DNA of 6,409 nt from an uncultured Prevotellaceae bacterium (lineage in GTDB: Bacteria > Bacteroidota > Bacteroidia > Bacteroidales > Bacteroidaceae): the NCBI GenBank assembly GCA_946644025.1, contig CAMPCG010000171.1, positions 1 to 6,409 on the forward strand, given 5' to 3'. A program made the translations under genes and the position numbers. Below are positions 3,418 through 6,409 of this stretch, piece after piece. Each line of letters opens with the position of its first letter. Within the stretch, counting starts at the first letter, position 1. The notes beneath the pieces are model-generated. The model had not been told where the DNA came from and did no database searches. It saw nothing but the letters and a program-made list of their open reading frames with translations.

Positions 3418-3446
3418 TTTACCATTGGACGATTTACTATTGGACG
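3417..3446 (-). repeat. Tandem 15-mer in the leader of the S9 peptidase gene
   Basis: On the minus strand CGTCCAATAGTAAAT (3446-3432) is followed directly by CGTCCAATGGTAAAA (3431-3417), two 15-nt units differing at two positions. The second unit runs into the A of the start codon. The units therefore occupy the 3' half of the predicted 5' leader, where they could affect ribosome binding or bind a regulator. The function is unknown. Confidence 0.7.
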
Positions 3447-3465
3447 TTTTTGTTTAAATTTGCTG

Positions 3466-3554: not shown

Positions 3555-4835
3555 ATGAAGGAATTTGTCATTTCCGAGGCCAAGACCGAGACGGCGATAC
3601 TTGTCGGGCTCATCACGCCGAACCAGGACGAGGCCAAGACGAAAGAATATCTGGACGAGCTGGAGTTTCTGGCCACCACGGCTGGAGCGCGCACGGTGAA
3701 ACGTTTCACCCAGCGCGTGGGCGGTCCGAGCAGCGTGACCTACATAGGCAGTGGAAAGCTGCGCGAAATCAAGGAATATATAAAGATGTGTGAGGACGCC
3801 GACGAAGAGATAGGTATGGTCATCTTCGACGACGAGCTGACCGCCAAGCAGCTACGCAACATTGAGCAGGAGCTGAAGGTGAAGATACTGGACCGCACGA
3901 GCCTCATACTGGACATCTTCGCCATGAGGGCCCAGACTGCCGAGGCCAAGGCTCAGGTGGAGCTGGCCCAGCACCGCTACATGCTGCCCCGCCTTCAGCG
4001 GCTGTGGACCCACCTGGAGCGACAGGGCGGCGGCTCTGGCGGCGGCGGCGGCAAGGGCACCGTGGGACTGCGCGGCCCCGGAGAGACCCAGCTGGAGATG
4101 GACCGGCGCATCATCCTGCACCGCATCACCCTGCTGAAACAGCGGCTGGCCGAGATAGACAAGCAGAAGACCACCCAGCGAAAGAACCGCGGAAGGCTCA
4201 TCCGTGTGGCCCTCGTGGGATATACCAACGTGGGAAAGTCGACGATGATGAACCTGCTCTCAAAGAGCGACGTCTTCGCCGAGAACAAGCTCTTCGCCAC
4301 GCTCGACACCACCGTCAGGAAGGTGACGATAGACAACCTGCCCTTCCTGCTGGCCGACACCGTGGGATTCATTCGCAAGCTGCCCTCAGACCTCGTGGAG
4401 TCGTTCAAGAGCACCCTCGACGAAGTGCGCGAGGCCGACCTGCTGGTACACGTGGTAGACATATCGCACCCTGACTTTGAGGAACAGATCAACGTGGTCG
4501 AGCAGACGCTGGCCGAGCTGGGATGTCAGGAGACGCCGTCGATGATGGTGTTCAACAAGGTAGACGCCTACCGCTGGACGCCACAGGACGAAGACGACCT
4601 GACGGAACCCACAAGGGAGAACATCTCGCTCGACGACCTGGAACGCACGTGGATGGCAAGAATCAGCGAGCGACAGAAGGTGAAGAGCGGAGAGTTTACA
4701 CCCACACCCATCTTCATCTCAGCCAAGCAGCGACAGAACATCGACGAGCTGAGACACGTGCTCTACCAGAAAGTGCGCGAGCTGCACGTGCAGAAATATC
4801 CCTACAACGACTTCCTCTATGAGATTGATGATTGA
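3555..4835 (+). CDS. hflX: GTPase HflX, ribosome-associated
   Basis: A 426-residue cytoplasmic GTPase; HflX proteins bind the 50S subunit and split stalled or hibernating ribosomes. The N-terminal HflX domain spans about 1-155 and includes YIGSGKLREIKE (63-74) and FDDELTAKQLRNIE (91-104). A Gly-rich segment (GGGSGGGGGKG, 158-168) precedes the family signature LRGPGETQLEMDRR (172-185) and a coiled coil (about 185-210). The G domain has all GTPase motifs: G1 GYTNVGKST (222-230), G2 TLDTT (249-253), G3 DTVG (268-271), G4 NKVD (334-337) and G5 SAK (389-391). Length and N-terminus fit Bacteroidales HflX as I know it, so the ATG at 3555 is secure. There is no hfq neighbour as in proteobacteria. An 11-mer repeat island begins 3 nt after the stop. 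Confidence 0.96.
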   Translation: MKEFVISEAKTETAILVGLITPNQDEAKTKEYLDELEFLATTAGARTVKRFTQRVGGPSSVTYIGSGKLREIKEYIKMCEDADEEIGMVIFDDELTAKQLRNIEQELKVKILDRTSLILDIFAMRAQTAEAKAQVELAQHRYMLPRLQRLWTHLERQGGGSGGGGGKGTVGLRGPGETQLEMDRRIILHRITLLKQRLAEIDKQKTTQRKNRGRLIRVALVGYTNVGKSTMMNLLSKSDVFAENKLFATLDTTVRKVTIDNLPFLLADTVGFIRKLPSDLVESFKSTLDEVREADLLVHVVDISHPDFEEQINVVEQTLAELGCQETPSMMVFNKVDAYRWTPQDEDDLTEPTRENISLDDLERTWMARISERQKVKSGEFTPTPIFISAKQRQNIDELRHVLYQKVRELHVQKYPYNDFLYEIDD

Positions 4836-4838
4836 AGG

Positions 4839-4886
4839 GGGGAGTGAAAGGGGAGTGAAGGGGGAGTGAAAGGGAAGTGAAAGGGA
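4839..4886 (+). repeat. Left arm of 11-mer island: four G-rich units
   Basis: Consecutive units with no phase slip: GGGGAGTGAAA (4839-4849), GGGGAGTGAAG (4850-4860), GGGGAGTGAAA (4861-4871), GGGAAGTGAAA (4872-4882), then a partial GGGA. They start immediately after the hflX stop, so they form its 3' UTR. Positions 4850-4874 pair perfectly with 4947-4971 of the right arm, 25 bp. The G-runs with 6-7 nt loops also satisfy the simple G3+N1-7 G-quadruplex pattern on the + strand. Confidence 0.9.
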
Positions 4887-4889
4887 CAA

Positions 4890-4897
4890 TAGTTTTG
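4890..4897 (+). promoter_or_regulatory. Possible -7 element within the repeat-island spacer
   Basis: TAGTTTTG matches TAnnTTTG and is the only such match I found between hflX and the glycoside hydrolase gene. No TTG lies at -33; that position falls in the G-rich repeats. If used, it would give a leader of about 195 nt made largely of the C-rich repeats. It may be coincidental. Confidence 0.35.
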
Positions 4898-4927
4898 CGC
4901 TTTCATCACGGTAGAAGCCATCGTCAC

Positions 4928-5057
4928 TTTCACTCCCCTTTCACTCCCCTTTCACTCCCCCTTCACTCCCCCTTCACTTCCCCTCCACTCCCCCTTTCAC
5001 TCCCCTTTCACTCCCCTTTCACTCCCCTTTTACTTCCCTTTCACTCCCCTTCATTCC
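4928..5057 (+). repeat. Right arm of 11-mer island: eleven C-rich units plus a remnant
   Basis: Units of TTTCACTCCCC or close variants start at 4928, 4939, 4950, 4961, 4972, 4983, 4995 (one extra C at 4994), 5006, 5017, 5028 and 5039, ending in a decayed TTCATTCC (5050-5057). Units 1-3, 7-9 and 11 are identical. Variants are CTTCACTCCCC, CTTCACTTCCC, CTCCACTCCCC and TTTTACTTCCC. This is the same repeat as the left arm in inverse orientation. It occupies most of the upstream region of the glycoside hydrolase gene, ending 41 nt before its ATG. The minus strand has many G-runs compatible with G-quadruplexes. Confidence 0.92.
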
Positions 5058-5098
5058 ACGTAAGCAAAGCCTACAACAATACAATTAAAACTATAACT

Positions 5099-6409
5099 AT
5101 GAAAAGAAAAGACCTGAACAAGAAGATGGCCACGGTGGTGACAGCCTTGCTGGCATCGTTCACCCTCGAGGCCACGGCGGCCAACACGAAGACCACCGTA
5201 GAAAAAGTGTCGGCAACAGTGGAACTGACCGACGACGTAGACTACATCGTCAGCGGCGCGACGCCCTTCGACAACGCCGGTGTGGTGGACATCAAGAACA
5301 CCGACCACGCCGTGCTCATCCTCAGCAACGTGAAGCCCTCGGCAGCCCTGCGTCTGCTGGCCGCCCACGTGAAAGTGAACGGCGAAAAGGCGGTGAACAA
5401 CTCCAACTGCCAGGTGAAGCTCTACAACCGCGGCTGCATCATCATGCCCTACGGCAGCAACTTCAAGCCACTCACCGCCTACACCGAGCAGAACTTCCAG
5501 GGCGAGTCGTGCAACAACTACGGGCTGGAGAACAGCGGCGGCTACATGAACACGCTGAACAACGCGAAACTGAACAACCGCATACGCTCGTTCAAGCTGA
5601 AACGCGGTTACATGGTGACCTTCGCCAACCGTGCCGGCGGACGCGGCTACAGCCGATGCTTCATCGCAGCCGACGAAGACCTGGAAGTGGCCACACTGCC
5701 CGGCGTGCTGGACAACAGCATCTCGTCGTACCGCATCTTCAAGTGGTATGACGCTGGAAAGAAACAGCTGGCCAACGACCTGACGTCCTCGACACTGGCA
5801 GCCCTCAACGTGCAGAGCAGCTACACCTGGAGCCAGGGACACGACATGGCCCCCGACTATGAGTGCGTGCCCAACCACATCTACGAGGACTACCCCTCGT
5901 CGTCGGCCATCGGACAGGCCACGTGGTCGCCCCACACGAAGACCAACAACGAGCCGCGCAACTCGGCTGACGACCACCCGCAGGACCTCAACACCATCCT
6001 GAACAACTGGGAGAACATGATGCGTACGGGTATGCGCCTCTGCTCCCCCGCCTCGTGGGACGGCAGCGACTACGGGAACGCCACGGGATTCCTGGCCGAG
6101 TTCCTGGACAGCATCGACGCCCGCGGATGGCGATGCGACATCATCGACCTGCACTGCTACTGGCCCGAGAGCAGCTTCAACACCTGGAGCTTCTATGACC
6201 AGTGGGCCAACCGCTACGGCCGACCCATCTGGATCAGCGAGTGGGTCTGGGGAGCATCATGGAACAGCAACGGAGCCTTCGCCAGCGGTGTCACCGAGAC
6301 ACAGAACCGCGACGCCATCCGACGCATCACCGCCAACCTCAACAACTGGGACTGCATCGAGCGCTACTACTACTGGAACAGCGAGCGCGACCCCAGCCGC
6401 ATCTACAAG
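5099..6409 (+). CDS. Secreted GH128-like glycoside hydrolase with N-terminal beta-gamma-crystallin-like region (3' partial)
   Basis: 437 codons are open to the window's end with no stop, so the C-terminus is missing. MKRKDLNKKMATVVTALLAS begins a signal peptide with a likely cut near residue 28 (ATAA) and no lipobox, suggesting secretion or periplasmic location. Residues about 30-120 are a beta-rich module of unknown type. Residues about 120-215 carry two crystallin-like Greek-key signatures: YTEQNFQG (128-135) with NNRIRS (159-164), and DNSISS (205-210). Residues about 220-437 match the Glyco_hydro_cc/GH128 TIM barrel: TWSQG (243-247), NNEP with acid/base Glu285, LCSPASW (314-320), IIDLHCYW (348-355), YGRPIWISEW (373-382) with nucleophile Glu381, and RYYYWN (422-427). 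Known GH128 enzymes cleave beta-1,3-glucans; the substrate here is inferred. The ATG at 5099 is preferred for its signal peptide and the A-rich upstream sequence; no Shine-Dalgarno is seen. Confidence 0.82.
   Translation, partial: MKRKDLNKKMATVVTALLASFTLEATAANTKTTVEKVSATVELTDDVDYIVSGATPFDNAGVVDIKNTDHAVLILSNVKPSAALRLLAAHVKVNGEKAVNNSNCQVKLYNRGCIIMPYGSNFKPLTAYTEQNFQGESCNNYGLENSGGYMNTLNNAKLNNRIRSFKLKRGYMVTFANRAGGRGYSRCFIAADEDLEVATLPGVLDNSISSYRIFKWYDAGKKQLANDLTSSTLAALNVQSSYTWSQGHDMAPDYECVPNHIYEDYPSSSAIGQATWSPHTKTNNEPRNSADDHPQDLNTILNNWENMMRTGMRLCSPASWDGSDYGNATGFLAEFLDSIDARGWRCDIIDLHCYWPESSFNTWSFYDQWANRYGRPIWISEWVWGASWNSNGAFASGVTETQNRDAIRRITANLNNWDCIERYYYWNSERDPSRIYK

Follow-up and report, generated by a model that had tools for sequence, protein, structure and literature searches.

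An inverted array of 11-nt repeats next to hflX is one copy of a dispersed family with IVP-carrying relatives

The inverted island of 11-nt repeats between the hflX and glycoside hydrolase genes of our window, the whole 6,409-nt stretch of DNA analysed here, is one copy of a dispersed family and not a local oddity. The island is probably an ORF-less copy or relative of a selfish element resembling the intervening sequences (IVSs) of 23S rRNA genes, because the layout of the Coxiella burnetii IVS and the fold of an IVP-carrying element found after hflX in another genome (locus L123) both agree with this reading. IVP, the 23S rRNA intervening-sequence protein (PF05635), is a four-helix-bundle protein whose family was first recognised in insertions within ribosomal RNA genes. 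The initial annotation had missed the dispersed family, with its inner tag, usual four-unit arms, IVP-carrying relatives and in-frame copies inside proteins. Each ingredient has a precedent, namely the 23S IVSs, four-unit G-rich repeats, the palindromes in Rickettsia proteins and BrickBuilt; we regard as new a probable IVS-like element outside rRNA with tandem-repeat arms. Neither this combination of ingredients nor IVP genes with inverted tandem-array arms appeared in the available text of the open-access matches listed, which is not proof of absence.

The repeat island and its family

The island (4837-5057) holds four G-rich and eleven C-rich 11-mers within two mismatches of the unit, which reproduces the initial count of fifteen copies in opposed arrays. 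The left arm (4839-4882, + strand) begins 3 nt past the hflX stop codon and consists of four G-rich units (GGGGAGTGAAA) starting at 4839, 4850, 4861 and 4872. The right arm (4928-5057, + strand) comprises eleven C-rich units (TTTCACTCCCC), with starts from 4928 to 5039, and a partial unit; its 11-nt register is broken by a single extra base before 4995, the one inserted base described initially. Between the arms lie the left inner tag GGGACAATAG (4883-4892, + strand), which resembles the tag in family members and in IVP-carrying relatives, a 26-nt spacer (4893-4918) and the right inner tag CATCGTCAC (4919-4927, + strand; degenerate TAWYGTCCC). From the last G unit to the first C unit we measured 45 nt (4883-4927); a spacer had been recognised at the outset, and its stated length of 41 nt depends on where the units are taken to end. 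The spacer contained no recognisable IVP ORF or remnant, which counts against the IVS-like reading. Units within two mismatches were confined to the island in the whole window, and 100 first-order Markov sequences modelled on the window had on average 1.75 unit matches and at most 6. Both arrays were detected by Tandem Repeats Finder. Since eleven units exceed the usual four, the C arm has probably expanded locally.

The longest perfect stem in the island is 25 bp and pairs 4850-4874 with 4947-4971 (span 4850-4971), the same run that had been proposed. The RNA fold of 4830-5100 reached -103.8 kcal/mol (z -10.8), and the DNA fold of 4837-4975 gave a z-score of -11.5. The initial annotation was right that the island is neither a CRISPR, as the units abut head to tail without unique spacers, nor an ordinary terminator, as the stem is long and the window sequence, read directly, has no T-run beyond 5057. 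It was also right about a strong hairpin beside the hflX 3' end, which varies among relatives. Rfam at the gathering threshold detected no known RNA family in the window or around the IVP element of the related genome G001. Both neighbouring genes were correctly named: the upstream gene (3555-4835, + strand) encodes the GTPase HflX (TIGR03156), and the downstream protein (5099-6409, + strand, extending past the window end) matched solved Glyco_hydro_cc glycoside hydrolases, though Pfam and NCBIfam gave no match. The description of the island as non-coding should be qualified: a GTG-started frame (4877-6409) stays open across the C-rich array into the downstream gene, although an ATG for this gene is present at 5099. 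The window also has a second short tandem array at 3418-3450, in the gap between the S9 peptidase gene and hflX (TTTACCATTGGACGA, 2.2 copies), which resembles AAATAGTCC-like arrays in G001, and a terminator-like inverted repeat (GAGCCGTCCAAAC ... GTTTGGACGGCTC) at 1000-1060 between the M15 and S9 peptidase genes.

The exact three-unit pattern was found in 45 stretches of 18 genomes (genome_contigs) labelled Prevotella, Prevotellaceae, Bacteroidales or Bacteroidetes and, to judge from these labels, metagenome-assembled, with many of ruminant origin. All 18 genomes also matched two tandem units when at most two mismatches were allowed: there were 4 to 269 such matches per genome, whereas the reversed pattern gave 0 to 14. 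A slightly different pattern matched in 42 of 299 sampled genomes of the genus, most often in G001 (224), G002 (53) and G271 (47); its reversed control gave 28 matches in G111, itself without a match to the pattern, and at most 7 elsewhere. G001, which carries 269 two-unit matches, is the closest of the 299 sampled genomes, its HflX being 94% identical to that of the window by profile alignment and 92% by tblastn. A viral origin of the array was rejected, as the exact three-unit pattern had no match in viral contigs (IMG/VR). The layout common to the family is an arm (commonly four units), an inner tag, a spacer and an inverted arm.

This anatomy was characterized in 392 kb of G001, picked around array matches and therefore not a random sample, with crude gene calls made from codon usage. 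The sample contained 56 elements with the arm compositions G-C (24), G-G-C (1), C (15), G (14), C-C (1) and G-G (1). All 25 elements with both arm kinds were ordered G...C and none C...G, and 49 of 84 arms had exactly four units. Over 70 inner boundaries the inner tag consensus was AAAAGTAWCGTCCC, in which the search itself had fixed positions 0 and 1 as G and T. Among 312 units of TTTCACTCCCC, positions 3, 5, 6, 7 and 9 were changed in at most 3.2%, position 2 in 8%, and positions 1, 4, 8, 10 and 11 in 12 to 30%. By the crude gene calls, the 33 intergenic elements lay in co-directional (29), convergent (4) and divergent (0) gaps. About half of the elements are single-arm copies, and the outer ends are ragged, with no exact ends or target-site duplication found; these facts count against the IVS-like reading. 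Transposon ends appear unlikely on account of the ragged outer ends and because no target-site duplication was seen by eye, there being no conspecific empty site for comparison.

In the G001 sample, L113:3217-3522 has a long G arm, in which GGGGAGTTAAA alternates with GGGAGTTAT-like units, opposite a short C arm, in a subfamily with TTAAC in place of TTCAC. The palindrome of a short element at L133:4750-4840 extends into both flanks, with AAGAACTAATTTT on either side, a pattern that suggests template switching. The long spacer of the L129 element contained no tRNA.

IVP genes and the site downstream of hflX

The gap between hflX and the homologous glycoside hydrolase gene (78% identical) holds no array in G001 (L076), and arrays of the window kind directly follow hflX at 2 of 30 loci (L091 and L102), as judged by eye. 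The array therefore looks inserted at this place, which speaks against the initial suggestions of a regulatory leader or a structured 3' UTR conserved with hflX. The outcome on absence from close relatives, which the initial annotation had named as a way to refute it, was mixed: the closest sampled genome is empty, but the two filled loci have such arrays. After hflX, L086 has an inverted array with the similar-looking unit GAAGAGTGAA, and L083 and L081 have the next gene at 37 and 21 nt and no array. In the place of L102, the G004 locus L123 showed a complete element directly after hflX, in which an arm, a 125-aa IVP ORF and an inverted arm follow each other and the first unit includes the hflX stop codon. 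When folded, this element forms a long stem (z -7.7) whose loop contains the IVP ORF. In the place of L091, the G257 locus L122 has a truncated IVP ORF between arms after hflX. The window shows the ORF-less form, followed by a different gene. The hflX 3' site thus occurs empty, complete, decayed and ORF-less in different genomes. Filled and empty sites come from different species and no movement was observed, which counts against the IVS-like reading.

IVPs between such arms are present in further relatives of the window element (L002, L004, L039 and L129, in addition to L123), and the inner tag of the G001 IVP element, CAAAAGTAWCGTCAC, equals the tag of ORF-less G001 copies. PF05635 matches were found in all 24 array genomes tested (23 over the cut-off), of which we had picked 16 among the first 18 and another 8 in the 299-genome sample. 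In a phylum sample of 118 genomes 90 had matches (87 over the cut-off), and 14 named control genomes had none. At loci with a recognisable ORF, inspection of the flanks revealed inverted short tandem arrays of varied units, such as GGAGTTAAA (L222) and GAGAGGT (L220), and GGGGAGTGAAA-type arrays flank the IVP loci L218, L212, L215 and L216. Among IVP loci, flanking inverted repeats with z of at least 5, scored against mononucleotide shuffles, occurred at 18 of 28 in array genomes and at 9 of 27 in the phylum sample. The three control groups had them at 0 of 30, 2 of 29 and 1 of 24 loci (3 of 83 in total); the control loci are partly dependent, some being the same gene twice. For this test 30 loci per group were supplied, and the denominators are those with enough flank. 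A refined set comprised 65 IVP loci, 63 of them with enough flank, from which two duplicates were dropped; with refined gene starts, arms were found at 20 of 26 and 12 of 30 IVP loci, the controls being kept at their original starts. By a longest-ORF heuristic, the IVP gene shared the strand of both its neighbours at 43 of 61 loci. The MutS control locus L157 (G022) is surrounded by strong inverted arrays (z 27.6), which counts against the IVS-like reading.

The unit length of the arms follows the IVP type, at 9-11 or 7-8 nt. IVPs with the motif AWQ[KL]A[HR] had arms at 18 of 19 loci, and at 17 of these 18 the period was 9-11 nt or twice that; other IVPs had arms at 19 of 42 loci, none of the 19 with such a period (p=1e-9 for the contrast, which is partly confounded with taxonomy, every AWQ-type locus coming from array genomes). 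The remaining 23 of the 42 other-type loci lacked arms at z of at least 5, and this counts against the IVS-like reading. The 392 kb of G001 (L106-L121 and L126-L145) contain 99 period-7 tandem arrays, about half of them inside genes, whose many unit families include AATGGTC and AAATCTC; since arms of period 7-8 frame other-type IVP genes, these arrays may be relatives of heptamer-type IVP elements. On contig C7 of G003 there are at least 10 PF05635 matches, several within a few kb.

NCBIfam TIGR02436 and database names both identify the IVP of L002 (P0121) as a four helix bundle protein. Its AlphaFold2 model (pLDDT 91.9) matched Xcc0516 (2GSC) and BT_0352 (2RLD) of the S23 family. Avd of diversity-generating retroelements (DGRs) likewise has a four-helix-bundle fold: the NCBIfam Avd match had an E-value of 4e-7, below the cut-off, and against Avd in DGR complexes the P0121 model gave E-values of 0.01 and above with TM scores of 0.68-0.76 by query. 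In contrast to Avd, IVPs do not appear tied to a reverse transcriptase. RVT_1 was found in 52 of the 118 phylum genomes, and among the 27 genomes with at least 8 PF05635 matches it was present in 13 and undetected in 14, in a tally made by hand in which genomes outside the positive list were taken as negative and may be incomplete; dependence on reverse transcriptase was accordingly not supported.

Copies in frame inside proteins

In G001, the crude gene calls place 23 of the 56 elements inside genes, where they introduce no stop codon. Homologues served to check the frame in Der, MutS, RimO, DUF3109, LpxB, BadF and MutS2, the other in-gene calls being based on the open frame. Homologue alignments revealed 16 additional residues in Der, RimO and DUF3109 and 27 in MutS, and the BadF kinase of G001 contains two arms. 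In LpxB (L156 compared with L167-L171 and L174) the arm peptide substitutes for about the same length and is not added, which counts against the IVS-like reading. The coding arms give peptides such as SNVPFTPPSLPLHSPFTP (C strand sense) and KGVKGSERGVKGSER (G strand sense). BadF relatives with both arms are found in the protein database (P0001, 97%, and P0002, 90% identical), so that an error in a single assembly does not account for the inserts; other relatives have fewer units or different repeats in the same loops, as judged from the 34 aligned of 120 matches listed. In G001 MutS2 an arm element occupies a loop whose counterparts in the relatives L184, L192, L193 and L200 have other sequences of partly repetitive appearance. 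The window copy itself is intergenic, and presence in proteins is a property of the family in G001.

Coding copies differ from intergenic ones in two respects. Spacings of 10 nt occurred in 6 of 18 G-strand-sense coding arms and in 0 of 59 intergenic arms (p=8e-5) and keep TGA out of frame; open-frame calling partly forces this bias, and the contrast with intergenic arms is its informative part. Elements with two arms made up 4 of 23 in genes and 21 of 33 between genes (p=0.0009), as expected if a hairpin in coding mRNA is costly.

Nature and origin of the element

The C. burnetii IVS is described in the available text of PMC4990558 as a 428-nt element whose inverted ends form a 28-bp stem with an S23 ORF in the loop. 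It is excised by RNase III and is called selfish; a transposition remnant and a mobile element are both discussed for its origin, and the origin of 23S rRNA IVSs is called unclear in the same text (PMC4990558). The family described here resembles IVSs in that its inverted ends form a stable long stem (in the window the 25-bp run, at -103.8 kcal/mol) and in that complete copies have an S23/IVP ORF in their loop. Unlike an IVS, the window copy, flanked by hflX and a glycoside hydrolase gene, is outside 23S rRNA genes and lacks the ORF; the family occurs between protein genes or inside ORFs, has several IVP genes per genome and has tandem-array arms.

In relatives, the complete form consists of an array arm, an inner tag, an IVP gene (PF05635), a second inner tag and an inverted array arm, and mostly occupies gaps between co-directional genes. 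We propose that transcription through the element would yield a long double-stranded RNA stem, and by analogy with 23S rRNA intervening sequences RNase III would cut this stem and limit the cost of insertion. IVP supplied in trans from complete copies would aid the self-copying of the element. The anatomy, the dispersal, the difference between species at the hflX site and the association with IVP genes were observed; we infer mobility and mobilisation, as well as RNase III cutting and IVP action in trans. The model leaves single arms, ragged outer ends and the LpxB replacement unexplained.

A broader reading, which we advance tentatively as a serious possibility, extends the IVS-like element to a selfish class throughout the Bacteroidota, in which IVP genes would sit in inverted short arrays between operon genes and ORF-less and single-arm copies would spread widely and turn into in-frame peptide inserts of conserved proteins. 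Within it, IVP would be a trans-acting factor that recognises the array unit, a role proposed because unit length tracks IVP type. To our knowledge, S23/IVP proteins have no known function. If true, the phylum-wide class would assign a role to the S23/IVP family and account for many short tandem repeats in Bacteroidota genomes. Short in-frame inserts of conserved proteins, and many short tandem repeats of Bacteroidota that lack an explanation, could be derived from such elements. The link with IVP genes, with its recognisable arms and tags, its sites both filled and empty and its multiple copies in a genome, makes IVP function and IVS origin directly testable.

Among other explanations, a locally grown minisatellite, in which a chance seed past the hflX stop grew by replication slippage and template switching without any mobile element, is unlikely. 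G001 is indeed rich in short arrays (99 period-7 and 79 period-11 Tandem Repeats Finder records per 392 kb), unit number varies, with 11 in the window C arm, the L133 palindrome continues into its two flanks, and between the BadF homologues P0007 and P0004 one loop differs in length by 11 aa, or three units. Local growth, however, does not fit the identical unit, inner tag and four-unit arm at unrelated loci of different genomes, nor the clustering of inverted arrays at IVP genes and their scarcity at control genes. For changes of arm length after insertion, slippage is viable.

We regard as quite improbable a functional RNA hairpin (a terminator, RNase III site or stability element), REP-like and selected between operon genes. 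The very stable fold of the window would suit such a hairpin, as would the 29 of 33 intergenic G001 elements in co-directional gaps, often about 20 nt from both genes by the crude gene calls. Against it, the frequent single arms cannot fold alone, arms also occur inside proteins, the closest sampled genome is without an array at hflX, and a U-tract is missing. C>T changes in C-arm units (40 in 94) are not clearly above G>A changes in G-arm units (32 in 100); with this asymmetry unclear there is no sign of G-U-preserving change, and maintenance of pairing by G-U changes was rejected.

It is very unlikely that the island is a G-quadruplex repeat of the kind that the available text of PMC4692102 describes for Xanthomonas and Nostoc, where GGGAATC heptamers come in sets of four units. 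The family shares with these heptamers the preference for four units, its commonest arm size, the location in co-directional gaps, the under-representation in divergent gaps and the placement of the G strand past a stop and the C strand ahead of the next start. It differs in its 11-nt unit, paired inverted arms, inner tags and IVP relatives. G-tracts are also not its most conserved part: in the 312 G001 units, G-tract position 9 is nearly fixed (0.6% changed), but positions 8, 10 and 11 change in 13, 17 and 20%, and positions 5-7 (A, C, T) in 0.3 to 3.2%. This pattern looks like recognition of sequence and not of G-tracts, and disfavours a G-quadruplex as the conserved feature. Equally little probability attaches to a MITE of an ordinary DDE transposon with a trapped minisatellite, like BrickBuilt of Porphyromonas gingivalis. 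In its favour, the family is dispersed, inverted, non-coding and from the Bacteroidales, and BrickBuilt too has internal tandem repeats. BrickBuilt, however, in the available text of PMC4596501 has 23-nt units and IS5-family-like ends and is always intergenic, whereas the gene observed between the inverted arms of the present family is IVP and 23 of 56 G001 elements were called in genes.

Further likenesses are partial. The palindromic elements of Rickettsia, as cited in the available text of PMC6649704, are likewise transposable palindromic DNA within protein-coding sequence; the present family differs in its tandem-array arms, single-arm copies, IVP relatives and phylum. The TAACTGA heptamers of Beggiatoaceae, cyanobacteria and five Bacteroidetes (PMC4679880) are also dispersed short direct repeats, but with a 7-nt unit, mostly just before start codons, and the available text of that source describes neither inverted arms nor IVP. 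In cas loci, 18 genes of the 23S_rRNA_IVP family have been reported (available text of PMC3936711). Table 5 of PMC5524665, as available, places a four helix bundle gene of Flavobacterium columnare between the guanylate kinase and nicotinate-nucleotide adenylyltransferase genes and counts it among phage elements; its position fits the IVP placement found here.
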